This document shows positions 12,331-62,197 of a stretch of DNA of 64,000 bases, piece after piece (the first letter of the stretch is position 1; every line of letters begins with the position of its first letter). Made by a program: the position numbers and the translations under genes. Source of the stretch: Eisenbergiella porci (GTDB taxonomy: Bacteria; Bacillota; Clostridia; Lachnospirales; Lachnospiraceae). The notes beneath the pieces were generated by a model that worked only from the letters and a program-made list of their open reading frames with translations, did not search any database and had not been told where the DNA came from. The stretch covers positions 1 to 64,000 of the forward strand of contig NZ_VUMI01000031.1 in assembly GCF_009696275.1 (NCBI RefSeq), in the 5' to 3' direction.

Positions 12331-13113
12331 TCACAGCTCTTCTTCCGCATATGCCTGTACCCTGTCAAAATCAAGGCTGCCGCCGTAAAGGTTCAGTGCG
12401 CTTCCCACCGTAACGTGTATCTTATTCCGGCCCAGCTCCTTAATGCTGCGGATATCCTCCAGGGAGCGGATTCCGCCGGCATAGGTAATGGGTATCCGGT
12501 TCCATCTTCCCAGAAGCGCCACCAGATCCTTTTCAATGCCGCATACCTTGCCCTCCACATCCACCGCATGAATCAGGAATTCATCGCAGAAGGAGGCAAA
12601 CATGTCAAGCACATCCTCATTCAGGATCACCTTCGTATATTTCTGCCACCGGTCGGTAACGATATAATAGGAACCATCCTTTTTCCGGCAGCTTAAATCC
12701 AGGACCAGTTTCTTCTTTCCCACGTTCTCCAGTAGGCGGTTCAGATTCTCATAGGAAATCGTCCCGTCACGGAATACATAAGAAGTGACAATGACATGGG
12801 AAGCGCCCGCGTCCAGATACTCATGGGCGTTCTCCGCAGTTATGCCGCCACCGGCCTGCAGCCCTCCCGGGAATGCCCGGAGCGCTGAACGAACCTGTTC
12901 CCTGGAGCTTTCATAATAGGGGCTTCCCTTCTTGTTGAGAAGAATTACATGCCCGTTTTTCAGTTTTTTTTCCTCAAAAAGCCTGGCATACCAGGCTGCA
13001 TCCTTCTCAGACACGAAATTTTCCTGCGCGCTGTCACTGATATCCGCCACACTTCCGCCAACCAGCTGCTTCACTTTTCCATTGTGCACATCTATACATG
13101 GTCTGAATTCCAT
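12331..13113 (-). CDS. hisA: HisA, ProFAR isomerase (eukaryotic-type)
   Basis: Phosphoribosylformimino-AICAR ribotide isomerase, a (beta/alpha)8 barrel of the histidine pathway, 260 aa. It opens with the catalytic Asp in CIDVHNGK; phosphate-binding loops are visible in LQAGGGITAENA and ITYAGGIRSLED. The sequence (HVILLNKKGSPYYESS, KKLVLDLSCRKK) resembles the eukaryotic HIS6-like branch more than classical bacterial HisA. AGGGAGAT precedes the ATG. No other his gene lies nearby. A 131-bp mobile repeat sits between its promoter and the start codon, so its leader is altered. Confidence 0.88.
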   Translation of the reverse strand: MEFRPCIDVHNGKVKQLVGGSVADISDSAQENFVSEKDAAWYARLFEEKKLKNGHVILLNKKGSPYYESSREQVRSALRAFPGGLQAGGGITAENAHEYLDAGASHVIVTSYVFRDGTISYENLNRLLENVGKKKLVLDLSCRKKDGSYYIVTDRWQKYTKVILNEDVLDMFASFCDEFLIHAVDVEGKVCGIEKDLVALLGRWNRIPITYAGGIRSLEDIRSIKELGRNKIHVTVGSALNLYGGSLDFDRVQAYAEEEL

Positions 13114-13151
13114 TTCTTTATCTCCCTGCCTCTGAATTAGAAAACTTTTTT

Positions 13152-13282
13152 GTAACTGTTCAGCAGGTCAGCGCATTTACTGCGCTGACCGTAAGAAAAT
13201 GATTCAGGAGTGCTAAAATCCATCGCCAAAGGCGATTTAGGATGGATTTTAGCAGTAACTGTGAGGGGTACTGAACAGTTAC
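13152..13282. mobile_element. 131-bp MITE, copy 1 (hisA leader)
   Basis: Non-coding element with perfect 12-bp terminal inverted repeats GTAACTGTTCAG / CTGAACAGTTAC and a perfect 8-bp direct repeat ACTTTTTT on both sides (13144-13151 and 13283-13290). Inside are two hairpins: GGTCAGCGCA/TGCGCTGACC, and GCTAAAATCCATC with GATGGATTTTAGC. It differs from copy 2 at only two positions. The GTAA ends and 8-bp duplications match what is known of IS66-family elements, so it is probably mobilised by an IS66-type transposase elsewhere. It lies between the hisA promoter and gene. Confidence 0.9.
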
Positions 13283-13306
13283 ACTTTTTTTTACAAAATT
13301 AGGTAT

Positions 13307-13335
13307 ATTTTACACGAATTTATCCCATTTGACAA
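13307..13335 (-). promoter_or_regulatory. Promoter of hisA
   Basis: On the minus strand TTGTCA (13330-13335), 17 nt, then TAAAAT (13307-13312). The predicted start at ~13300 puts the whole mobile repeat into the hisA 5' untranslated region. Confidence 0.7.
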
Positions 13336-13457
13336 TTCCCTTTTCCGAATAAAAAGAATTTTTCCGAACATAATAAAAAACGGACAGATATTTTGTTCAA
13401 AAGTGCGCTTCTGTTTTACAGACACACCCAATCACAAAGAAAAAAGGAGTGAGCAAA

Positions 13458-13931
13458 ATGAAAAAGCTGAACAGAATAATACCTGCAGCTCTGATTCTGC
13501 TGATGCTTGCCAGTGTTACAGCCTGCGGCAGTAAGAAAAACAACGCGGATGACATGGCAGGAAATACAACAGAGTCTGCTTCTGCTACGGAAGAAACAGC
13601 AGGTATGAACAACACCACAGGAAACGGCGCTGCAGGAAACGAAACGGCAAATGAAACAAATACGACAGGTATGAATGAAACAGGCACCATGGAAGGCACT
13701 ACCGAAACCGCGGGCCTGAATGATACTACCGGTATAAACGGCACCAACAACGGCACCACCGGCGGCAAAAGCACTGCAAACGAAGGTTCCAATATCGTTG
13801 ACGGCGCCGGAAATGCCATCGATGACGCAGGCGATGCCGTGGGCAATGTTGTTGATGATGCCGGAAATGCAGTAAAGGATGCAGCTGACGGGGTGGCAAA
13901 CGGCGTCAAGGATATTACCAACAATAAATAA
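13458..13931 (+). CDS. Low-complexity Thr/Asn/Gly-rich lipoprotein
   Basis: 157-aa exported lipoprotein. A hydrophobic signal (IIPAALILLMLASVTAC) ends in a lipobox with Cys about residue 23. The mature part is almost entirely Thr, Asn, Gly, Glu and Ala (NNTTGNGAAGNETANETN), then repeated Asp/Ala blocks (DDAGDAVGNVVDDAGNAVKD). Start taken at the ATG 8 nt after AAAGGAG, not the GTG overlapping that site. Likely a surface-anchored disordered protein; function unknown. Confidence 0.85.
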   Translation: MKKLNRIIPAALILLMLASVTACGSKKNNADDMAGNTTESASATEETAGMNNTTGNGAAGNETANETNTTGMNETGTMEGTTETAGLNDTTGINGTNNGTTGGKSTANEGSNIVDGAGNAIDDAGDAVGNVVDDAGNAVKDAADGVANGVKDITNNK

Positions 13932-14067
13932 TCCTGCCGATTCCTCCTGTCTTTGACCGCAAACCTTTGACCACAAACAGGGCAGGCCCCGCCTGCCCTG
14001 TACATATCAGGCCGCCTGTAACATGAAATATCTGTAACTGTGAAAATACCGCACAGTTTTATTTTTA

Positions 14068-16029
14068 TCACACGCCTTTTTCTATAAGCGTACCGTCCCT
14101 GTAGGCCGCAAGCAGCTCCTCCAGATAACAGATGCTTTCCTTGAGCTCCGCGCCGATGTCCGTATCCGCAACCCGGATCCGCCTGGGCGCCGTTTCCACA
14201 ATAATGGAGTCGGAAAAAATATCCGATTCCTTCCGAATGGCCGCCTCCGCCGATTCAAAGGGTTCATGGGCCACCAGCGTCATGCCGTGGGAATTTGCCA
14301 CCAGCGTATAGCCTGCGATTCCTGTTTTTCCCTGATAGGCCTTGGAAAAGCCGCCGTCGATAATCAGAAGCTTTCCGCCGCATTTAATAGGCGTTTCCCC
14401 CTTTTTCAGCTCTACGGGGACATGGCCGTTGATGATGTGGCATTTTTTGTCCAGGCCGAATTCCCGCAGAATCCGGTTAAGCACCTCCTCGTTGTCCATC
14501 AGGCGGTAATAGCTGTTCTTTATCTCCACATGGGTGCTCTTATCCTCAACAAAATAGCGTTCGAAGGTGGCCATTTTATCTTTTCCGAAGACCGGGGAAT
14601 TGGGGCCGGTCCAGATATACCAGATAATATCCTTCCCTTTTTCCCGTTCCTCCTTATCCTGGGAGTAATAGCCCTTTCTGGCATAGTGATCCAGAATATC
14701 ATACAGCTCCTTACCGCTGTATTCCTTCCCGTAGACGTTCACCTTCAGGAAATTTCCCTCTTCATCCATGGGCACGCAGCCGTGGTAAAGAAGGTTGGAA
14801 TTGTATACCTTGTAAAGGCTTCCCTTGGAAAAAAGGAAACGTACATGCCGCTGCAGCTTCTCGCAGTGCACAAACGCATGGCGCAGCCTCTCCACCACCT
14901 GCTCTTCTTCCTCCGTCAGCCGGTAAGGGTCGGCCGGGTCAATGGTGGGGAAATCCATGTCCTTCATGGCATATTCCGTACCGTTAATGGTTACCGTATT
15001 TTTTTCATAATTTATTTTGTCCAGAAGGAGTCTGTCGGCCATGTCGAATTCCGGCCGTTTCTGAATCAGCTGGCCCTCCAGCTTGAACTGGATGATGGCA
15101 ATGGCTTTGTGCATCTTCATATCCAGCTCCATATCCTTCATGTCGTAATCTTCCCCGTATTTGATGGAAAAAACGCTGCAGTCTGAGTCCGCATAGGTAT
15201 TCATGGCAAAGGTGGCAAGAGGGATCAGGTTGATTCCATAGCCTTCCTCCAGGATATCCAGGTTGCCATACCGGGCGGAAACCCGGATAATATTGGCGAT
15301 ACAGCTGGTCTGGCCGCTGGCCGCGCCCATCCATACCACGTCATGGTTGCCCCACTGGATATCCACCGAATGGTACTGGCTTAAGGTATCCATAATAATG
15401 TGAGGCCCCTTGCCCCTGTCAAAAATATCCCCCACAATATGCAGATGGTCTATCACAAGCCGCTGTACGAGATTACACAGGGCAATAATGAATTCCGGCG
15501 CCCTGCCAATGCGGATAATCGTATGGATGATTTCGTTATAATACGCTTCCTTATCCTGCACCTCTTCCTTTTCCGTGATCAGTTCCTCAATAACATAGGA
15601 AAAATCCTTGGGAAGGGCCTTCCTCACCTTGGAGCGGGTATATTTGGAGGCTACGCGCTTGGTCATCTGCACCAGCCTGTGAAGGGTGATTTTAAACCAG
15701 TCCTCCAGGTTTTCCTGGCTGTCCTCCTCCTGCATGATCAGCTCCAGCTTCTCCTTTGGATAATAAATCAGTGTCGCCAGGCTGCGCTTATCCCTGCTGC
15801 TTAAGGTGTTCCCGAATTCTTCGTCGATTTTACGCTTTACGCTTCCGGAGCCGTTCTTGAGCACATGGTTGAACTGCTCATATTCCCCGTGGATATCCGT
15901 CAGAAAATGCTCCGTTCCCTTCGGCAGGCTCAATATGGCCTGCAGGTTAATTATTTCCGTGGCAGCATCCGCAATGGTGGGAAACTGCTTGGACAGACTT
16001 TTCAGGTAAGTTAATTCCAAATCCTGCAT
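14068..16029 (-). CDS. fbp: Fructose-1,6-bisphosphatase class III
   Basis: Gluconeogenic phosphatase converting fructose-1,6-bisphosphate to fructose-6-phosphate (653 aa, full length for the Firmicutes class III enzyme). The metallophosphatase motifs are clear: GDIFDRGKGPH, WGNHDVVWMGA and, near the C-terminus, INGHVPVELKKGE with GGFSKAYQGKTGIAGYTL. AAAGGGG lies upstream of the ATG. A terminator and a long inverted repeat separate it from dapB, so it probably has its own promoter, which I could not place. Confidence 0.97.
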   Translation of the reverse strand: MQDLELTYLKSLSKQFPTIADAATEIINLQAILSLPKGTEHFLTDIHGEYEQFNHVLKNGSGSVKRKIDEEFGNTLSSRDKRSLATLIYYPKEKLELIMQEEDSQENLEDWFKITLHRLVQMTKRVASKYTRSKVRKALPKDFSYVIEELITEKEEVQDKEAYYNEIIHTIIRIGRAPEFIIALCNLVQRLVIDHLHIVGDIFDRGKGPHIIMDTLSQYHSVDIQWGNHDVVWMGAASGQTSCIANIIRVSARYGNLDILEEGYGINLIPLATFAMNTYADSDCSVFSIKYGEDYDMKDMELDMKMHKAIAIIQFKLEGQLIQKRPEFDMADRLLLDKINYEKNTVTINGTEYAMKDMDFPTIDPADPYRLTEEEEQVVERLRHAFVHCEKLQRHVRFLFSKGSLYKVYNSNLLYHGCVPMDEEGNFLKVNVYGKEYSGKELYDILDHYARKGYYSQDKEEREKGKDIIWYIWTGPNSPVFGKDKMATFERYFVEDKSTHVEIKNSYYRLMDNEEVLNRILREFGLDKKCHIINGHVPVELKKGETPIKCGGKLLIIDGGFSKAYQGKTGIAGYTLVANSHGMTLVAHEPFESAEAAIRKESDIFSDSIIVETAPRRIRVADTDIGAELKESICYLEELLAAYRDGTLIEKGV

Positions 16030-16074
16030 ACTTGCTGTTTACCCCTTTCCGATCTCAGGCGCTTCTGAACTTAA

Positions 16075-16102
16075 CAAAAAAGGGAATCCTCAGATTCCCT
16101 TT
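16075..16102 (-). terminator. Terminator after dapB
   Basis: AAAGGGAATC and GATTCCCTTT form the stem, with a T6 tract on the minus strand. It ends the dapAB transcript before fbp. Confidence 0.8.
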
Positions 16103-16106
16103 ATTT

Positions 16107-16162
16107 CCGCGGGCAACGAGCCAAGCAGCCATGCCTGCATGGCTATTTGGCGACTGCCGCGG
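16107..16162. repeat. 56-bp long inverted repeat between fbp and dapB
   Basis: Nested arms CCGCGGGCA/TGCCGCGG, CCAA/TTGG and AGCCATG/CATGGCT around a CCTG loop give a nearly continuous GC-rich hairpin. No T tract follows directly, so it is not itself a simple terminator; the separate terminator next to it is complete. It may be an intergenic repeat family member, a 3'-end stabiliser of dapAB mRNA, or a protein-binding cruciform. Confidence 0.6.
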
Positions 16163-16177
16163 GGGTCAAAGTCCGCA

Positions 16178-16963
16178 TTACACGCCTTCGATTACATCAC
16201 TCATATCATACAGTCCCGCAGGCTTGCCCTTCAGGAATTTGGCCGCCTGTACGGCGCCCTTGGCAAATACATTCTTGGAGTATGCCGTATGGGAAAAGGT
16301 GATGACCTCATCCTCCCCTGCGAAAATCACGTCATGATCTCCTACTATTGTACCACCGCGCACCGCAGAAAGTCCAATTTCTTTTTTGTCTCTTTTCTGC
16401 CTTCTGGTGCTTCTGTCATAAACATAGGTGTATTCATTATTAAATTCTTCATTGATGGAATCCGCCAGCGCCAGCGCGGTGCCGCTGGGAGCATCCACCT
16501 TCTGGTTGTGGTGCTTTTCCACAATTTCGATGTCAAAGCCAGCCGGGGCCAGCACGCCCGCCGCTTCCTTCAGAAGCTTAAGCAGCAGGTTGATTCCCAG
16601 AGACATATTGGCAGATTTCAAAACCGCCGTCTTACGGGAAAGGGCCTTCACCCGCTCCAGCTGCTCCGGGGAAAGTCCCGTAGTGCACAGCACACTGGGC
16701 ATCAGCTGCGCTTCACAGTAATCCAGCAGCTTATCCACAGCGGCTGCCGAAGAAAAATCAATGGCCACATCCGCCAGCAGGGAACCGTCCTGCCCGCAGG
16801 CCTGCCTGTAATCCTCCAGGCTTTTATAAACCGGATAAGCATTGGAAATGTGGTCGGATACGTCCACTCCCGCAATTATTTCCATATCGGCTTCCGCTTC
16901 CACCAGACGGGTAATCACCTGTCCCATGTGGCCGTTGCAGCCGTGCATCAGTATTTTTACCAT
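16178..16963 (-). CDS. dapB: 4-hydroxy-tetrahydrodipicolinate reductase
   Basis: Second committed step of lysine and meso-diaminopimelate synthesis (NAD(P)H-dependent reduction). The N-terminal dinucleotide fold has the motif HGCNGHMGQ; the catalytic segment is EKHHNQKVDAPSGTA, with His and Lys in the expected places. About 261 aa. The start MVKILMHG fits the family; 13 codons further upstream are also open. It follows dapA by 51 bp on the same strand and shares its lysine-controlled transcript. Confidence 0.97.
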   Translation of the reverse strand: MVKILMHGCNGHMGQVITRLVEAEADMEIIAGVDVSDHISNAYPVYKSLEDYRQACGQDGSLLADVAIDFSSAAAVDKLLDYCEAQLMPSVLCTTGLSPEQLERVKALSRKTAVLKSANMSLGINLLLKLLKEAAGVLAPAGFDIEIVEKHHNQKVDAPSGTALALADSINEEFNNEYTYVYDRSTRRQKRDKKEIGLSAVRGGTIVGDHDVIFAGEDEVITFSHTAYSKNVFAKGAVQAAKFLKGKPAGLYDMSDVIEGV

Positions 16964-17014
16964 ATCATTACCATCCGCGCCGGGGGCGCGCCTTTCTTCC
17001 AAACGAAATACGGA

Positions 17015-17902
17015 TTACAGGATGCCGAAATCCTTCATGGCCTTCTCCAGCTTCACCGCATTTTCCTCTTCCATTTCCGTCAGCGGCCTTCTTAAGGGAC
17101 CTGCCTCCAGTCCCATCAGGTTCATGGCCTTCTTAACAGGGATCGGGTTCACCTCGCAGAATAATGCCTTGCAGAGCGGAATTGCCTTCAGCTGGATTTC
17201 CCGGCTGCCCGCCACGTCTCCTGCAAAAAATCTGGCGCACATATCATGGGTCTGTCTGGGCGCCACGTTGGAAAGAACGGAAATCACGCCTTTTCCTCCA
17301 AGGGAAAGCAGCGGCACTACCTGATCGTCGTTGCCGGAGTAAAGATCCACATCCTCCCCCGCCATGCTCATCAGCTGGGCCACCTGGCTGATATTGCCGG
17401 TAGCATCCTTTACGCCGACAATATTGGGAACCTCCCTGCACAGCCTTACCACCGTTTCCGGAAGGATATTGACGCCGCCGGTTCTTCCCGGGATATTATA
17501 AAGAATCATGGGAACATGGATGGCCTCCGCCACGATTTTAAAATGCTCATAAAGCCCCTTCTGGGTAGCCTTGTTGTAATAGGGAGTTACCACCAGAACA
17601 CCGTCAACTCCAGCCTTTTCCGCTTCCTGGGAAAGATAGACCGCTGTCTGCGTACAGTTGGATCCTGTTCCTGCAATAACCGGGATTCTTCCGGCCGTCT
17701 GCTCCACACAGAAACGGATTACCTCCAGATGCTCCTCATGGGTCAGCGTGGAAGCCTCGCCTGTAGTCCCGCATACAATGATGGCATCCGTGCCGCCCGC
17801 AATCTGGGCCTCGATATGCTCAGCGAACTTCTCGTAATTGACACTTCCGTCCTCATGAAAAGGGGTGATAATCGCTACGCCTGCTCCTGTAAAAATTGCC
17901 AT
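17015..17902 (-). CDS. dapA: 4-hydroxy-tetrahydrodipicolinate synthase
   Basis: Condenses pyruvate with aspartate semialdehyde, the entry step to lysine and DAP. 295-aa TIM barrel. The Schiff-base Lys lies in IVGVKDATGN, the catalytic Tyr in VTPYYNKATQ, and the substrate motif GTTGEASTL is intact. AAGGAGGAG lies just before the ATG (MAIFTGAG). First gene of the dapA-dapB operon, read from a promoter at 18293-18321 through a lysine riboswitch and terminator. Confidence 0.97.
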   Translation of the reverse strand: MAIFTGAGVAIITPFHEDGSVNYEKFAEHIEAQIAGGTDAIIVCGTTGEASTLTHEEHLEVIRFCVEQTAGRIPVIAGTGSNCTQTAVYLSQEAEKAGVDGVLVVTPYYNKATQKGLYEHFKIVAEAIHVPMILYNIPGRTGGVNILPETVVRLCREVPNIVGVKDATGNISQVAQLMSMAGEDVDLYSGNDDQVVPLLSLGGKGVISVLSNVAPRQTHDMCARFFAGDVAGSREIQLKAIPLCKALFCEVNPIPVKKAMNLMGLEAGPLRRPLTEMEEENAVKLEKAMKDFGIL

Positions 17903-18052
17903 ATGCTCCTCCTTGTTTACGCACTGTACTGCGTTTCTTATGTGGCGGCGTCTTCCGGCCCGCCTGATGAAAGTTACCATGAATATAATGCTGCCGGATA
18001 CGGCAGAAACGGTAACTGACACACAGCTGCAGATTTGTGCAGCCGGCAGCAA

Positions 18053-18114
18053 CAAAAAATTCTCCGGCCATCCTGCTTATGTAAAAATCCAGAGGCGGCC
18101 GGAGATAAATTTCC
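18053..18114 (-). terminator. Riboswitch-controlled terminator of dapA
   Basis: On the minus strand TCTCCGGCC and GGCCGGAGA form the stem, followed by ATTTTTTG. It lies directly after the lysine aptamer and before dapA, as expected for attenuation. Confidence 0.8.
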
Positions 18115-18121
18115 TTTTTAT

Positions 18122-18284
18122 GATAGCGCCCCATCTGTTATAGATGACAGTCATATGGTTGTTCACCCTATGCCCAAGATTCCGGCCGCAGGAGCCTTTC
18201 TCTTTCGGCGTTCTCCCCTTTCCCTCTTCCTCAACTGTGCCTGTCACATCGGAAAAGCTACTCTTGAATCACGCAACCTCTATC
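18122..18284 (-). promoter_or_regulatory. Lysine riboswitch (L-box)
   Basis: The 163-nt aptamer has the conserved L-box landmarks in order on the minus strand: GATAGAGGTTGCG, AAGAGTAG, GAGGAAGAGGGAAAGGGG, CGCCGAA, a GGGTGAACAAC segment, TGACTGTCAT and the closing GGGGCGCTATC, which pairs with the 5' GATAG to form P1. Lysine binding should favour the downstream terminator and shut off dapAB. Confidence 0.9.
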
Positions 18285-18292
18285 TGGAAATA

Positions 18293-18321
18293 ATCATAGC
18301 ACGCGCACAGGTTCCTGTCAA
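18293..18321 (-). promoter_or_regulatory. Promoter of the lysine riboswitch-dapAB transcript
   Basis: TTGACA (18316-18321), 17 nt, TATGAT (18293-18298) on the minus strand. Transcription starts just before the aptamer. Confidence 0.85.
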
Positions 18322-18357
18322 CGCGCAGATGTGATGATTATGTGTGTTCCTTTCTCC

Positions 18358-18393
18358 AAAAAAACGGAGAAGCATGCCCCGCACGCTTCTCCG
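18358..18393 (-). terminator. Terminator of the adenosyltransferase gene
   Basis: CGGAGAAGC and GCTTCTCCG form the stem, with T7 following on the minus strand. Confidence 0.8.
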
Positions 18394-18527
18394 GCCGCCG
18401 CAGGGAAAGTCCCCGCGGAACCAATCTTTATTTTTTTATCCAGCCCCGCTGCCGCCGCTTCCTTGTTATAACGCAGGCAACCCTGCAACGTGGTCTTCCG
18501 CAGAGGCATACAGCCGCTGCCGATCCG

Positions 18528-19013
18528 TCACTTGATTGTGCGTATCTCGGAAACATAGTCTGCCAGGGCGCATACATCCTTATCCAGGGAAATCCCGGTC
18601 ATGATAATATCCGTCTCACCATCCCTGGATTCAAGGACATTTTTCAAATCCTCCACGGTAATGATTTTATTATCAATCAGGCCCAACACCTCATCCAGTA
18701 TCAGCATATCGCATTCTCCGGTATTGAGCACCTTTTTGGCATAATTCAGGCCGTTTCTGATATTCCTGGCCTCTTCCTCCTGCTTTTCTTTGGGAAGAGT
18801 TACAAAATCTTCATCGGATTTTTCAAAACGGAACAGCTTGATCTCCGGCTCCAGCCTGCGCTGATAATCATTCTCCGTCAGGCCCTTGCCCTTCAGGAAC
18901 TGGATAATCACTACCTGCGCGCCCTTGGCCGCCGCTATCAACCCACAGCCTATGGCTGCCGGCGACTTGCCGTGTCCTGTTCCCCCATAAATATATACTT
19001 TTCCTTCTTCCAT
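18528..19013 (-). CDS. Corrinoid (cobinamide/cobyrinate) adenosyltransferase
   Basis: 161-aa P-loop protein of the CobO/CobA (BtuR) type, which transfers adenosyl from ATP to a Co(I) corrinoid. The nucleotide-binding loop is YGGTGHGKSPA, slightly off the usual GNGKGKT pattern. The family block DMLILDEVLGLIDNKII and the C-terminal DIIMTGI match. Slightly shorter than the usual 170-200 aa. Isolated from other cobalamin genes, so a salvage or housekeeping role is likely. Assignment to the family is firm; the exact substrate is not. Confidence 0.85.
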   Translation of the reverse strand: MEEGKVYIYGGTGHGKSPAAIGCGLIAAAKGAQVVIIQFLKGKGLTENDYQRRLEPEIKLFRFEKSDEDFVTLPKEKQEEEARNIRNGLNYAKKVLNTGECDMLILDEVLGLIDNKIITVEDLKNVLESRDGETDIIMTGISLDKDVCALADYVSEIRTIK

Positions 19014-19200
19014 ATGTACGCCCCTCTACGGTATTTACGCGGTCGCAGCCGCCGTCTTCTTCCGTTCGCCCGCCCTCAGGCAGCGACAGCCAAACAGACC
19101 TTCCCGGCGGACTGTCTTTTTTTTCCATTTTTTATCATACCATATGCATCAGGCCGATGCAACTTTTATTGCAGCCGTACAGTTTATTCATAATTTTCCA

Positions 19201-19830
19201 TTATTCTTCAACCAGCTCCAGCTTGCTGACGGACACCTCATAGGCAATCCTTTTTTCCAGCTGGTCCTCGCCGATTTTTTTCATATATTCACGGCTCTGG
19301 ATTCTGCCCCAGATTTCGCAGCGCTCTCCCACGTTGAAGCCGCCGGCGAAACGGGCGTTGCGTCCCCAGCAGATACAGGGGATGTAATCAGATTTTCCGT
19401 ACGGCCGGTTTACGGCCAGGAGCACGTCGGCAATTTCCCGTCCCAGAGGAGTCTTTCTGTAAACCGGTTCCTTGCAGATATAGCCGTCCAGGTAAATCTG
19501 ATTGGTTTTGGAGCTTTCCTCCAGTTCCTCCACAAATTCAATCTCTCTTGCGAATACGGACAAAATCAGTCGGTTCTTTCTCTCTTCGTGGCGGTTATAG
19601 GAACGGAATTGCCCGGACACACACACATAGGCCCCTTTATAATCCTCTTCCACATCGAGAAGCCTTTCGGAAACCATCAGGGGGATGATGTCATAAGAAT
19701 CGCTGAGTCTTGCGACCTCAACGTCCACCATGTAGAAGCCCTCTCCGAAAATCTCGTGGCTGAATTCAAAGTCGCTCACGATTTTCCCCATAATGATTAC
19801 CTGGTTGTTTTCAATTACCTTATCTGTCAT
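19201..19830 (-). CDS. SSB-like OB-fold protein
   Basis: 209-aa protein related to single-stranded DNA-binding proteins, apparently with two OB-like halves. The first covers MGKIVSDFEFSHE to RLILSVFAREIEF. The second begins NQIYLDGYICKEPVYRKTPLG and runs through IPCICWGRNARFAGGF, close to the ssb/primosomal-protein pattern. It lacks the acidic DDIPF-type tail of replication SSB, so it is probably an accessory rather than the main SSB. AAGAAGGGAG precedes the ATG. Confidence 0.8.
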   Translation of the reverse strand: MTDKVIENNQVIIMGKIVSDFEFSHEIFGEGFYMVDVEVARLSDSYDIIPLMVSERLLDVEEDYKGAYVCVSGQFRSYNRHEERKNRLILSVFAREIEFVEELEESSKTNQIYLDGYICKEPVYRKTPLGREIADVLLAVNRPYGKSDYIPCICWGRNARFAGGFNVGERCEIWGRIQSREYMKKIGEDQLEKRIAYEVSVSKLELVEE

Positions 19831-19945
19831 TTTTTGTTCTCCCTTCTTGGGCCCCGGTTTGACCGGAACCGCATGTAAGAATTTTTTCCTGTCATGTATT
19901 ACTATTTTATGGCACGCAAGCCCATCCTAGAACCGCCATGGGTCG

Positions 19946-19985
19946 CCCCGATTTCCGTAAAATCGACAGATATCGGGGGTTTTTG
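19946..19985 (+). terminator. Terminator-like hairpin before the typA promoter
   Basis: CCCCGAT and ATCGGGG close a stem followed by a T5 run on the plus strand. No plus-strand gene lies upstream, so it may insulate typA or stop antisense transcription. Confidence 0.45.
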
Positions 19986-19996
19986 CAGGTTTGGTG

Positions 19997-20025
19997 TTGC
20001 AAGTTGATTTTATCGGTGCTATACT
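19997..20025 (+). promoter_or_regulatory. Promoter of typA
   Basis: TTGCAA (19997-20002), 17 nt, TATACT (20020-20025). It gives a leader of about 210 nt before the typA start. Confidence 0.75.
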
Positions 20026-20074
20026 ATTTTAGTTTGAAGCATTTTGCATAATAATAAGGTAGTTCCTCATGTCG

Positions 20075-20175
20075 GAATTCTTCCCCGGATTTAGACGGAA
20101 CGGCATTGTGCCGGTCTTTGGGCGCAGCTCTTCGGCTTCCATAACGCCGACGCGTCAGAATCCGGGGAAAAATTC
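20075..20175 (+). ncRNA. Candidate structured leader RNA of typA
   Basis: The arms TTCCCCGGATT (20081-20091) and AATCCGGGGAA (20159-20169) pair perfectly; the stem continues after a 2x2 internal loop as GACG/CGTC. Enclosed are a hairpin CGGCA-TTG-TGCCG and a second one, GGCG...CGCC with AGC/GCT, giving a three-way junction. No T tract follows, so it is not a plain terminator. It lies between the typA promoter and its ribosome binding site. I do not recognise it as a known riboswitch class. Confidence 0.45.
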
Positions 20176-20244
20176 AGGTATGCGTACTGCCTTTTATGCA
20201 GATAATGAACTGTAATCATGTTATGTCCAAGGAAGGAATTTTGT

Positions 20245-22080
20245 ATGAATCAGAAAAGAGAAGACGTGAGGAATGTTGCGATCATCGCCCACGTTGATCA
20301 TGGTAAAACGACACTTGTAGACGAGCTGCTCAAGCAGAGCGGCGTATTCAGGGAAAATCAGGACGTGGCCGACAGGGTCATGGATTCCAATGATATTGAG
20401 CGCGAAAGAGGAATCACGATTCTTTCCAAAAATACCGCTGTTATGTATAAGGGAACCAAGATTAATATCATAGATACTCCCGGGCATGCCGATTTCGGCG
20501 GCGAGGTGGAGCGTGTACTGAAGATGGTAAACGGTGTTATCCTGGTGGTAGATGCCTTCGAGGGGCCGATGCCCCAGACGAAGTTCGTTCTCCGCAAGGC
20601 GCTGGAGCTGCAGCTGCCTGTTATTGTATGCGTAAATAAGATCGACCGTCCGGAAGCCAGGCCGATAGCTGTTGTAGATGAGGTCCTTGAGCTTTTCATG
20701 GATCTGGATGCCAATGACGAACAGCTGGACTGTCCTTTTGTATTCGCTTCCGCCAAGACAGGAAGCGCCACGCTGAACCTGACCGTAAAAAACAAGGACA
20801 TGAAGCCGCTGTTTGACACCATTGTGGATTATATTCCCGCGCCGGAGGGCGATCCCGAAGCAGGAACGCAGCTGCTTATCAGCACCATTGATTATAACGA
20901 ATATGTGGGCCGCATCGGCGTGGGCAAGGTGGACAACGGTACCATTTCCGAAGGCCAGGAGGTGGTTATTGTCAACCATCACGAACCTGAAAAGCAGAAG
21001 CGTGTGAAGGTGAGCAAGCTCTATGAATTCGACGGACTGAGCAAGATCCCTGTAAAAACCGCTTCCATCGGATCCATTGTGGCGATTTCCGGTATCACGG
21101 ATATCCATATCGGGGATACCCTGTGCTCTCCCGAGAATCCGCAGCCGATCCCGTTCCAGAAAATTTCCGAACCTACCATTGCCATGCATTTTATTGTAAA
21201 TGACTCTCCCTTCGCCGGCCAGGAAGGGAAATTCGTTACCAGCCGCCACATAAGGGACAGGCTGTTCCGCGAATTGAACACGGACGTTTCCCTGCATGTG
21301 GAGGAAACCGACACTACGGAAAGCTTCAAGGTTTCCGGCCGCGGCGAGCTGCATCTGTCCGTCCTGATTGAGAATATGCGCCGCGAAGGCTATGAATTTG
21401 CAGTGAGCAAGGCGGAGGTACTCTACAAGACGGACGAACACGGCAAGAAGCTGGAGCCTATGGAAATCGCTTACATCGACGTTCCCGAAGCTTTTTCCGG
21501 AAGCGTTATCGAAAAGCTGAGCCAGAGAAAGGGCGAGCTTATCAACATGGGCGCGGCCAACGGCGGCTATACCCGTCTGGAATTCAACATCCCCTCCAGA
21601 GGGCTGATCGGCTACCGTGGTGAGTTCATGACGGATACCAAAGGCAACGGCATCATGAACACCGCTTTCGCAGGCTACGGCCCCTATAAGGGAGAAATCC
21701 AGTACAGAAAACAAGGCTCCCTGATCGCCTTTGAAACAGGCGAATCCATCACCTACGGCCTTTTCAATGCCCAGGAACGGGGAACGCTTTTCATCGGACC
21801 CGGCGAAAAGGTATACGCAGGCATGGTCATCGGCCAGAACGGCAGAGGCGAGGATATCGAGGTCAATGTGTGCAAGAAAAAACAGCTCACCAACACCCGT
21901 TCCTCCAGCGCGGACGAAGCGCTGCGCCTCACCCCGCCCAAAATCCTCAGCCTGGAACAGGCCCTGGATTTCATCGAGACGGACGAGCTGCTTGAGGTAA
22001 CCCCCAAGAACCTGCGTATCCGCAAGAAAATCCTGGACCCCACCAAAAGAAAAAGAGCAAACATGAACAGGAATTCATAA
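20245..22080 (+). CDS. typA: Ribosome-binding GTPase TypA/BipA
   Basis: Translational GTPase of the EF-G/LepA superfamily, 611 aa, linked in other bacteria to ribosome assembly and stress adaptation. G1 is AHVDHGKTTL, the switch I region contains RERGITI, G3 is DTPGHADFGGEV and G4 is VNKIDR. The BipA-specific C-terminal domain is present (GLIGYRGEFMTDTKGNG). AAGGAAGG lies 8 nt before the ATG at 20245; an ATG nine codons upstream has no site. Monocistronic with promoter, structured leader and terminator. Confidence 0.97.
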   Translation: MNQKREDVRNVAIIAHVDHGKTTLVDELLKQSGVFRENQDVADRVMDSNDIERERGITILSKNTAVMYKGTKINIIDTPGHADFGGEVERVLKMVNGVILVVDAFEGPMPQTKFVLRKALELQLPVIVCVNKIDRPEARPIAVVDEVLELFMDLDANDEQLDCPFVFASAKTGSATLNLTVKNKDMKPLFDTIVDYIPAPEGDPEAGTQLLISTIDYNEYVGRIGVGKVDNGTISEGQEVVIVNHHEPEKQKRVKVSKLYEFDGLSKIPVKTASIGSIVAISGITDIHIGDTLCSPENPQPIPFQKISEPTIAMHFIVNDSPFAGQEGKFVTSRHIRDRLFRELNTDVSLHVEETDTTESFKVSGRGELHLSVLIENMRREGYEFAVSKAEVLYKTDEHGKKLEPMEIAYIDVPEAFSGSVIEKLSQRKGELINMGAANGGYTRLEFNIPSRGLIGYRGEFMTDTKGNGIMNTAFAGYGPYKGEIQYRKQGSLIAFETGESITYGLFNAQERGTLFIGPGEKVYAGMVIGQNGRGEDIEVNVCKKKQLTNTRSSSADEALRLTPPKILSLEQALDFIETDELLEVTPKNLRIRKKILDPTKRKRANMNRNS

Positions 22081-22129
22081 CTGTAAGAATCCTGAGCACC
22101 CATAAATATCCAAGAAGCCAATTTAACGC

Positions 22130-22170
22130 AACTGCCCGGCAGATATCCCCACCTGCCGGACAGTTTTCTA
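22130..22170 (+). terminator. typA terminator
   Basis: AACTGCCCGGCAG and CTGCCGGACAGTT form the stem, followed by TTCTATTACTTTT. Confidence 0.75.
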
Positions 22171-22575
22171 TTACTTTTAATTTATCCACACACATCAGGA
22201 ATATGCACCCATTCCCGTCACCCAAAACAGTCCGTCTGCCTCATAACCAGCCCTTCTCCAACTCCCAATCCAGTCTAATTGCTGCCCGAATATTTGTCAA
22301 ACAACATCTCCCATTCTGATAAACTCACTTTACATTACAATACGGCAGCTGTCTGAGGAGCCTGCGACGAGTTTCTGCCGTATCAGGACTGCCAAAGCTT
22401 ACTTCGGACACTTTTAGAAACAACCCAAAACTGAGTAGCATCAGTGAAATACCCGAAGCCCCCCGCCCTGCATGGAACTTTCGTCCCCCCGGGAAGGATG
22501 GCGGTGCAAACCCGCCGGGGGCGCAGGACAATGCCGGCACGAAACACGAAGGCCTCCAAAATTTCCCGGCTTTGC
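22171..22575. other. Intergenic stretch, no gene seen
   Basis: About 400 bp between typA and the TetR-type gene. I see no convincing coding frame or RNA; a few short open frames lack ribosome binding sites. Confidence 0.5.
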
Positions 22576-22604
22576 TTGCCCCATGGAGAAATTTTGCTTA
22601 TAAT
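22576..22604 (+). promoter_or_regulatory. Promoter upstream of MITE copy 2
   Basis: TTGCCC (22576-22581), 17 nt, then a consensus TATAAT (22599-22604). The predicted start (~22611) lies just before the element, so the element becomes part of the regulator's 5' leader. Confidence 0.7.
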
Positions 22605-22617
22605 GAATAGGTACGGT

Positions 22618-22748
22618 GTAACTGTTCAGCAGGTCAGTGCATTTACTGCGCTGACCGTAAGAAAGTGATTCAGGAGTGCTAAAATCCATCGCCAAAGGCG
22701 ATTTAGGATGGATTTTAGCAGTAACTGTGAGGGGTACTGAACAGTTAC
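22618..22748. mobile_element. 131-bp MITE, copy 2 (TetR-gene leader)
   Basis: Same length as copy 1, with the same 12-bp terminal inverted repeats. It is flanked by a different perfect 8-bp duplication, GGTACGGT (22610-22617 and 22749-22756), proving an independent insertion. One of its two differences converts a G-C to a G-U pair in the first internal hairpin. It ends 37 bp before the start of the downstream regulator gene. Confidence 0.9.
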
Positions 22749-22785
22749 GGTACGGTAATAAAATGTCCCGCGTCAGGAGAGAAGA

Positions 22786-23358
22786 ATGGCTGATTCCAAT
22801 ATCACAAAAAATGCGCTTGCATCATCCCTGAAATTGCTGATGACGCAGAAGCCCTTCAGCAAAATCAATGTAAATGACATATGTGAAGGCTGCGGCATGA
22901 ACCGCAAAAGCTTTTACTATCATTTTAAGGATAAATACGATCTGGTGAACTGGATCTTTTATACAGAATTTGTTTCCAGCATCCATTTGGAGCAGTATGA
23001 CAACGGCTGGCTGCTGCTGGAGGATATCTGCCGCTATTTTTACAGTGAAAAGGAGTTTTACCGCTGCGCCTTTGCCATTAAGGGCCAGAACTCCTTCCAG
23101 GATTATTTTTTTGAAGTGATAAAGCCCCTGATTCCGCTGTTTCTTTCAGACAGTATCGTAAACGGCGAGGATCAGAAGTTCTTCCTTGATTTTCTCTGCG
23201 ACGGTTTTGTATCCGCCCTCGTCCGCTGGCTTTCCGTAGAAAATGAGACCACCGCTGAGGAATTTGTGGGACATCTGAAAAAAATTCTGCTCATCTTCGC
23301 CCGGGAAGTTTTTCAGGAGCTGGGGGACGATGCCTCCGCCATAGATACCGAAAATTAA
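22786..23358 (+). CDS. TetR-family regulator (DhaS-like C-terminal type)
   Basis: 190-aa regulator. The N-terminal helix-turn-helix reads FSKINVNDICEGCGMNRKS then FYYHFKDKYDLVNWIF (residues ~25-62), typical of the DhaS-like subgroup. The C-terminal ligand/dimer domain is helical. AGGAGAGAAG precedes the ATG. Its leader contains MITE copy 2. It converges with the flippase/radical-SAM pair, which it might regulate given the palindromes at 25981-26043; this link is inferred from position only. Confidence 0.88.
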   Translation: MADSNITKNALASSLKLLMTQKPFSKINVNDICEGCGMNRKSFYYHFKDKYDLVNWIFYTEFVSSIHLEQYDNGWLLLEDICRYFYSEKEFYRCAFAIKGQNSFQDYFFEVIKPLIPLFLSDSIVNGEDQKFFLDFLCDGFVSALVRWLSVENETTAEEFVGHLKKILLIFAREVFQELGDDASAIDTEN

Positions 23359-61732: not shown

Positions 61733-62197
61733 TTCCCCTGATGTCCGACGCCTGTCCCTGATGGGTGGAGGTCAGATTTTCCTCTATTAATGTGCGGAAT
61801 ATTTCTTCATTCTTATTCTGATATATATGCAGCAAAAAAAGACCGTAAATCCCATCACGGCCGTTCCTATTGCTATCAGCACCATTCCCCGGTTTCTCAC
61901 TGCTTTATGCAGATCCTTACCCTTCGTTTTTCCATATGCTGCCTCTCCTGACCCCAGCGCCCTATCCTACCTATTTTATAACCGTTCAGTTTCCTTTACA
62001 GTTACCATATTTTTCTGCTGATTTCAGGGCTTTTATTTATAAAATGATTCTATCCCTTTTTCCAGGACCGCGCAATCCCTTCCTGTCCGGAATAATACTG
62101 CGTGTCCGGAATATTTTTATTTGCCCGGAATACTTTCGTCTGGATCCGCAGCGGCAGTTTTTTATGTACACGGCAGTTTTTTGTGTGCGTTTCTTTC
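61733..62197. other. Intergenic, no gene seen
   Basis: About 465 bp of T-rich sequence. I find no credible frame, RNA or repeat before the promoter at 62198. Confidence 0.45.

Follow-up and report, generated by a model that had tools for sequence, protein, structure and literature searches.

The window considered here is a 64,000-nucleotide stretch of Eisenbergiella porci DNA (positions 1 to 64,000 of contig NZ_VUMI01000031.1). It contains two copies of a 131-bp element with ends and target duplications like those of the IS66 family of insertion sequences (ISs), one between hisA and its promoter and the other upstream of a gene encoding a TetR-type regulator (Table 1). This report concerns the origin of this element, a miniature inverted-repeat transposable element (MITE), and of a population of much shorter standalone hairpins (minis) that resemble its right end. 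As an earlier sequence-only reading of the window had described, the two copies differ at two positions (element positions 21 and 48), have perfect 12-bp terminal inverted repeats (TIRs), and are flanked by 8-bp duplications, each pair being identical over 8 bp. The two internal hairpins of that reading are both present, but the description was incomplete as the right 28 bp of the element form a third hairpin. The length of 131 bp is too short for a transposase gene and there are many copies without one, as expected for a MITE. A mechanically called 84-aa open reading frame (ORF; 22441-22695, minus strand) overlaps copy 2 only in part.

Table 1. Positions of the two MITE copies, their parts and the neighbouring features in the window.
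Feature	Position	Strand	Remarks
hisA	12331..13113	-	PF00977
Left 8-bp target duplication, copy 1	13144..13151		ACTTTTTT
MITE copy 1 (subfamily A, 131 bp)	13152..13282	+	downstream of hisA promoter
Left TIR, copy 1	13152..13163	+	GTAACTGTTCAG; first 8 bases directly repeated at 13255-13262
Hairpin 1, copy 1	13166..13190	+	10 pairs, covarying
Hairpin 2, copy 1	13211..13254	+	13 outer and 4 inner pairs, covarying
Hairpin 3, copy 1	13255..13282	+	right end with internal copy of left end; unit also found alone as a probable scar
Right 8-bp target duplication, copy 1	13283..13290		ACTTTTTT
hisA promoter TTGTCA-17-TAAAAT	13307..13335	-	conserved at all 11 hisA loci fetched from same-genus relatives
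Promoter-like TTGCCC-17-TATAAT before TetR-type gene	22576..22604	+	absent from aligned upstream DNA of G012 and G001
Left 8-bp target duplication, copy 2	22610..22617		GGTACGGT
MITE copy 2 (subfamily A, 131 bp)	22618..22748	+	
Hairpin 3, copy 2	22721..22748	+	
Right 8-bp target duplication, copy 2	22749..22756		GGTACGGT
TetR-type regulator	22786..23358	+	PF00440 and PF14278
Possible decayed 28-bp scar	61978..62005		8-bp flanks CCTATTTT/CATATTTT, 1 mismatch; 2 mismatches in one end

Family size and relationship to IS66

The search of the genome and its relatives that the sequence-only reading had proposed uncovered a large family, many members of which carry duplications. The 131-mer has 42 matches in its own genome (G000; 6.1 Mb, 149 contigs), ranging from 100% down to about 76% identity (40 of 135 candidates scored), and the left TIR, allowing up to one mismatch, is found 215 times on the two strands compared to 16 times for the reversed control. 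Matches were found in 19 of 98 genomes (own included), and the copies in G012, a genome of the same genus, are 95% identical to the 131-mer. An end-pair scan of 1.13 Mb of G000, in which all GTAACTGT-like ends separated by no more than 3 kb were paired, determined that 42 of 612 pairs have an 8-bp duplication (at most one mismatch) compared to 0.17 per shifted control. The subfamilies of full elements are about 60-75% identical to one another. At one locus (L126:8690-8961), two adjoining full elements have CATAGATG as a common duplication, which would fit insertion of one at the flank of the other. One 20-mer from the element had no exact matches in viral contigs, and a plasmid search for the element found none. 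A phage collection contained three unannotated fecal scaffolds with 81-84% identical matches. Among such scaffolds, MT837311.1 and MT836459.1 ("Bacteriophage sp.", human feces) carry full-length copies; these scaffolds may be bacterial contigs.

The assignment of the ends and 8-bp duplications to the IS66 type was borne out by matches to the ends of IS66 elements that themselves bear duplications. At the right end of the MITE, 17 of 18 bases agree with the left end of an IS66 element from E. plexicaudatum ASF492, and 16 of 18 agree with the best end of an IS66 element from Lachnospiraceae GAM79 and, separately, with the own-genome IS66 end; for the left end of the MITE, the agreement with IS66 ends is 13-15 of 18. 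A search for an IS66 element with the same ends was partly successful, as complete elements were recovered from other Lachnospiraceae but only one end from the own genome. That end, GTAACTGTTTAGGACCCC, is the outer end beside an interrupted TnpC found on a short contig by a transposase domain search, and the second end was not recovered at the G000 loci. The reading frame of this TnpC (L061, G000:C140) diverges from its relatives just after DNNQA, in a stretch that is repeated at other contig ends, and it is probably interrupted by another element.

TnpC relatives were fetched at 36 loci from named genomes, 34 of which were examined for ends (ends printed for 8). Fourteen of the 34 are 1.7-1.8 kb elements with GTAAC ends and an 8-bp duplication, which is perfect in 12. 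Two of these 14, the complete 1.8 kb elements of ASF492 and GAM79, were checked for ORFs of at least 100 aa and each has a single one (481 aa in L218 and 485 aa in L214), as is characteristic of the ISBst12 group. ISDge4, a member of this group, has the end GTAACTGCTCAGCA and an 8-bp repeat according to the available text of PMC12898284. Short elements bearing the IS66 end variant of GAM79 itself are numerous in that genome (27 forward pattern matches compared to 6 for the control). By its ends and duplications, the classification of the element as an apparently IS66-derived MITE holds, and an IS66 transposase is predicted to mobilise it.

The third hairpin and the minis

Full and mini elements were collected from 1.13 Mb of G000 (55 element-bearing stretches and the window) and from 25 stretches of G012, accepting 8-bp duplications with at most two mismatches. 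The 75 elements include 28 full elements (120-155 bp) and 47 minis (up to 46 bp), and shifted controls at this limit gave 1.2 full and 1.8 mini. An internal copy of the left end is present in all 28 full elements, at 27-31 bp from the right end in 27 and at 21 bp in one, and the right end therefore forms a hairpin. In 21 sequences of subfamily A and its relatives, 9 of the 35 pairs in the three hairpins changed on both sides, and 95% of hairpin cells pair compared to 29-39% when the structure is slid, although the structure was derived from one of the 21 sequences, which favours it.

The duplication-bearing pairs of the end-pair scan fall into two main sizes, 16 of 23-31 bp and 23 of 126-149 bp, with 3 of other sizes. 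The minis are 22-46 bp long (27 bp in 28 of 47), have the same type of 8-bp duplication, and outnumber the full elements in the stretches examined. They resemble hairpin 3 alone, the best fit being to subfamily A for 40, C for 6 and B for 1. Duplications are perfect in 20 of 28 full elements and in 8 of 47 minis, and the minis therefore look older. Sites opposite minis are empty in relatives; for example, the site of the G012 mini at L175:16423 is empty in both G000 and G001, and one mini is common to G012 and G001 and absent from G000. In another gap the minis of G000 and G012 lie at different positions (L121:9983 and L187:10001) and are apparently independent insertions. Additionally, a 69-bp element with a perfect duplication in G009 (L078:749-817) has kept hairpin 1 and is missing hairpins 2 and 3; it is another deletion derivative of the MITE.

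Subfamily D, from other genomes of the genus, has a right hairpin with perfect arms, GTTACAGT. Among the 11 full D elements with duplications, 8 have the left end GTTACTAT, and the remaining 3 have a different 8-mer that is likewise non-identical. Hairpin sites of this subfamily were found in 8 of 10 genomes (25 sites, 23 of them distinct after two duplicates were dropped). These 23 include 1 standalone mini with a duplication, 11 full elements, 6 hairpin-adjacent sites and 5 unassigned sites, whereas the 67 sites of subfamily A include 30 minis with a duplication, 15 full elements, 4 hairpin-adjacent sites and 18 unassigned sites. The difference in minis (1 of 23 versus 30 of 67) has a p value of 2.6e-4. 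Minis are thus scarce where the left end and the internal copy differ, which is predicted by deletion between direct repeats and is not predicted by transposition of the hairpin.

Origin of the minis

We consider it probable (roughly 0.68) that the element is an IS66-type MITE mobilised in trans and that the minis are scars of its in-place deletion between direct repeats. An IS66 transposase of the ISBst12 group would move the MITE in trans, and insertion into AT-rich intergenic DNA would duplicate 8 bp. The left end and its internal copy would then serve as short direct repeats on either side of two strong hairpins, with the stretch between them being deleted by replication slippage or single-strand annealing. 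The product would be hairpin 3 (typically 27-31 bp) flanked by both target duplications. This proposal builds on features read directly from the DNA, namely the ends, the duplications, the relatives' empty sites, the number of copies and the three-hairpin layout, and the minis fit the expected remnant with its duplications kept, as judged by sequence fit, which is weak (scores 9-14) for about ten of the 47.

The minis also end in inverted repeats, are flanked by 8-bp duplications and face empty sites in relatives, as would be seen if the 27-31 bp hairpins had transposed themselves, with the IS66 transposase reading the internal left-end copy and the right end as a tiny element. The hairpin would then be the smallest transposable unit known, its arms being the two ends and the 131-152 bp MITEs being longer carriers. 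Both the process and this view of the hairpin seem unlikely to us, as the minis look older than the full elements and as D-type hairpins, with their perfect 8-bp arms, almost never stand alone with a duplication. Additionally, a 27-bp duplex would be too stiff to join both ends in the usual DDE complex. It is doubtful as well that the minis stem from the transposase, in an aborted excision or in gap repair, and not from replication slippage in the host. Gap repair jumping between two copies of GTAACTGT would be expected to give the same products, but the copy-and-paste transposition reported for ISDge4 of the ISBst12 group (available text of PMC12898284) leaves no donor gap.

Several observations weigh against deletion between direct repeats in a trans-mobilised MITE. 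Among 14 sites aligned between G000, G012 and G001, none is occupied by a full element in one of these genomes and by a scar in a second, and the conversion of full elements to scars is therefore inferred. A G000 mini and a G012 full element (L141 and L184) were considered as such a pair and rejected, since they differ in their flanks and in their positions within the same gap and are read as independent insertions. An 8-bp repeat is short for slippage, and about 1.8 of the 47 minis are expected to pass the two-mismatch limit by chance. The comparison of subfamilies lacks phylogenetic independence, since its A sites were drawn from two genomes and its D sites from eight that are mostly fragmentary; moreover, 18 of the 67 sites in A and 5 of the 23 in D were left unassigned. 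Repeat length does not track scar number smoothly: in subfamily B (7-base repeat), 1 mini stands against 8 full elements, and in subfamily C (9-base repeat), 6 best-fit minis, of which only one is strong, stand against 4. On the transposase side, the ASF492 genome is rich in IS66 copies and lacks such MITEs (2 pattern matches compared to 8 for the control), and G012 was rejected as the transposase source, since the search there yielded no more than a TnpC relative of 25% identity.

Placement relative to genes and promoters

Both window copies sit between a promoter-like site and a gene, as the sequence-only reading had stated. The distance of 38 bp to the gene start that it gave for both loci is correct for hisA and is 37 bp for the TetR-type gene. 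The 17-bp-spaced promoter motifs that it placed outside the element are also present; the TATAAT promoter of the TetR-type gene is less certain, since it is not shared by the two relatives compared. These lack the element and have TTGACT-17-TACACT (G012) and TTGACT-17-TAAACT (G001), with the -10 falling where the duplicated 8-mer lies. The hisA upstream stretch contains 3 promoter-like sites compared to 0.9 in shuffles, and that of the TetR-type gene contains 1 compared to 0.2. The hisA locus was recovered in 11 of 12 same-genus relatives, and no end-like 8-mer lies between promoter and gene in these 11, which are empty sites; in G004, an element-like sequence lies upstream of the promoter. 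A terminator scan of 13090-13470 found none, and near copy 2 it found one minus-strand match (22778-22766) outside the element.

The idea that the element prefers promoter-to-gene leaders was examined in the 75 elements. Genes were called by a simple home-made hexamer model (coding fraction 0.85 in G000). None of the 75 lies inside a called reading frame, which is the scope of this result, since the model would treat a gene disrupted by an insertion as ending there. The elements occupy 53 tandem, 18 divergent and 3 convergent gaps and 1 contig edge, and the convergent share (3 of 74) shows a weak deficit relative to an expected 0.103 of intergenic bases (p 0.045). Tandem-gap sites (50 of 53 scored) are biased to the upstream stop codon, with a mean of 0.62 on a start-to-stop scale. 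The three 10-bp bins at the insertion point have an AT content of 0.67-0.70 (71 of 75 sites, with 4 dropped as convergent or edge) compared to 0.56 at 2810 distance-matched random sites. Within -20 to +10 there are 28 sense and 30 antisense -10-like hexamers compared to 18.4 (sd 4.0) in local-composition shuffles, the highest of 500 being 28, and AT-richness therefore explains only part of the signal. As the residual signal is strand-symmetric, it points to a TA-rich target more than to a directional promoter, with promoters still a possible contributor. Of the 28 full elements, 18 have the same orientation as the nearest downstream gene and 10 the opposite one (p 0.18). In 8 of the 75 cases, a called gene enters the element and ends there, its stop codon being the TAA within the terminal GTAAC (or ATAAC) (e.g. 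L188:10001, L137:11917 and L120:9968).

Insertion could favour the -10 zone, perhaps via open transcription complexes, and the element could act as a structured 5' untranslated region. The positions of both window copies, the hexamer counts above shuffles and the slight convergent-gap deficit are in keeping with this, but the hexamer excess is equal on the antisense strand, tandem sites drift to upstream stops, the orientation bias is not significant and the hisA leader has no Rfam match at E up to 1. Leader targeting is thus improbable in our judgement, and the preference for leaders is not established. If the minis are deletion scars, the placement at hisA and at the TetR-type gene is mostly ordinary tolerated intergenic insertion, and the two cases advise caution against inferring promoter targeting from insertions in leaders. 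An Rfam scan of the window gave 4 matches, none of which overlaps an element. A lysine riboswitch (RF00168, 101 bits) is found at 18116-18290 on the minus strand; the genes downstream of it are presumably dapA and dapB.

Comparison with known systems

The element shares GTAACTGYTCAG-type ends and the 8-bp duplication with IS66 elements of the ISBst12 group, such as ISDge4 (available text of PMC12898284). Unlike these, it measures 131 bp and lacks a transposase gene; its right end also forms hairpin 3, a feature not seen in the IS66 ends of the 8 elements compared. In the accessible parts of their reports, MITEPye1 (PMC11578231) and MITECca01 (PMC9769881) are likewise short, have terminal repeats, lack a transposase and resemble IS elements of their hosts, and MITEPye1 additionally lies between genes, can fold and has direct repeats on both sides. 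They differ in resembling IS1182 and IS982, and no size-locked scar population is mentioned in those parts. No description of IS66-linked Lachnospiraceae MITEs or of such scars was found in the titles and abstract openings of the papers retrieved from an open-access library.

The proposed formation of scars would be a natural counterpart of the nearly precise excision of Tn10 and Tn5. The original work on Tn10 nearly precise excision is said to be that of Foster in 1981. This process is cited in the part of PMC5991714 that is available, and the available text on DIRex (PMC5576700) describes deletion between short direct repeats that is stimulated by inverted repeats. DIRex tested repeats of 20-30 bp in the laboratory, whereas the MITE has a built-in 8-bp repeat, and in contrast to both DIRex and Tn10/Tn5, many remnants of the MITE stand in natural genomes. 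The family represents a large population of Lachnospiraceae MITEs linked to ISBst12-group IS66 elements. It would provide natural sequence evidence that hairpin-assisted deletion between 8-bp repeats trims bacterial mobile elements, and the scars would be a genome-wide record of former insertions that is short enough to evade ordinary repeat searches. What is new relative to known MITEs is the built-in right-end hairpin together with the abundant scars.

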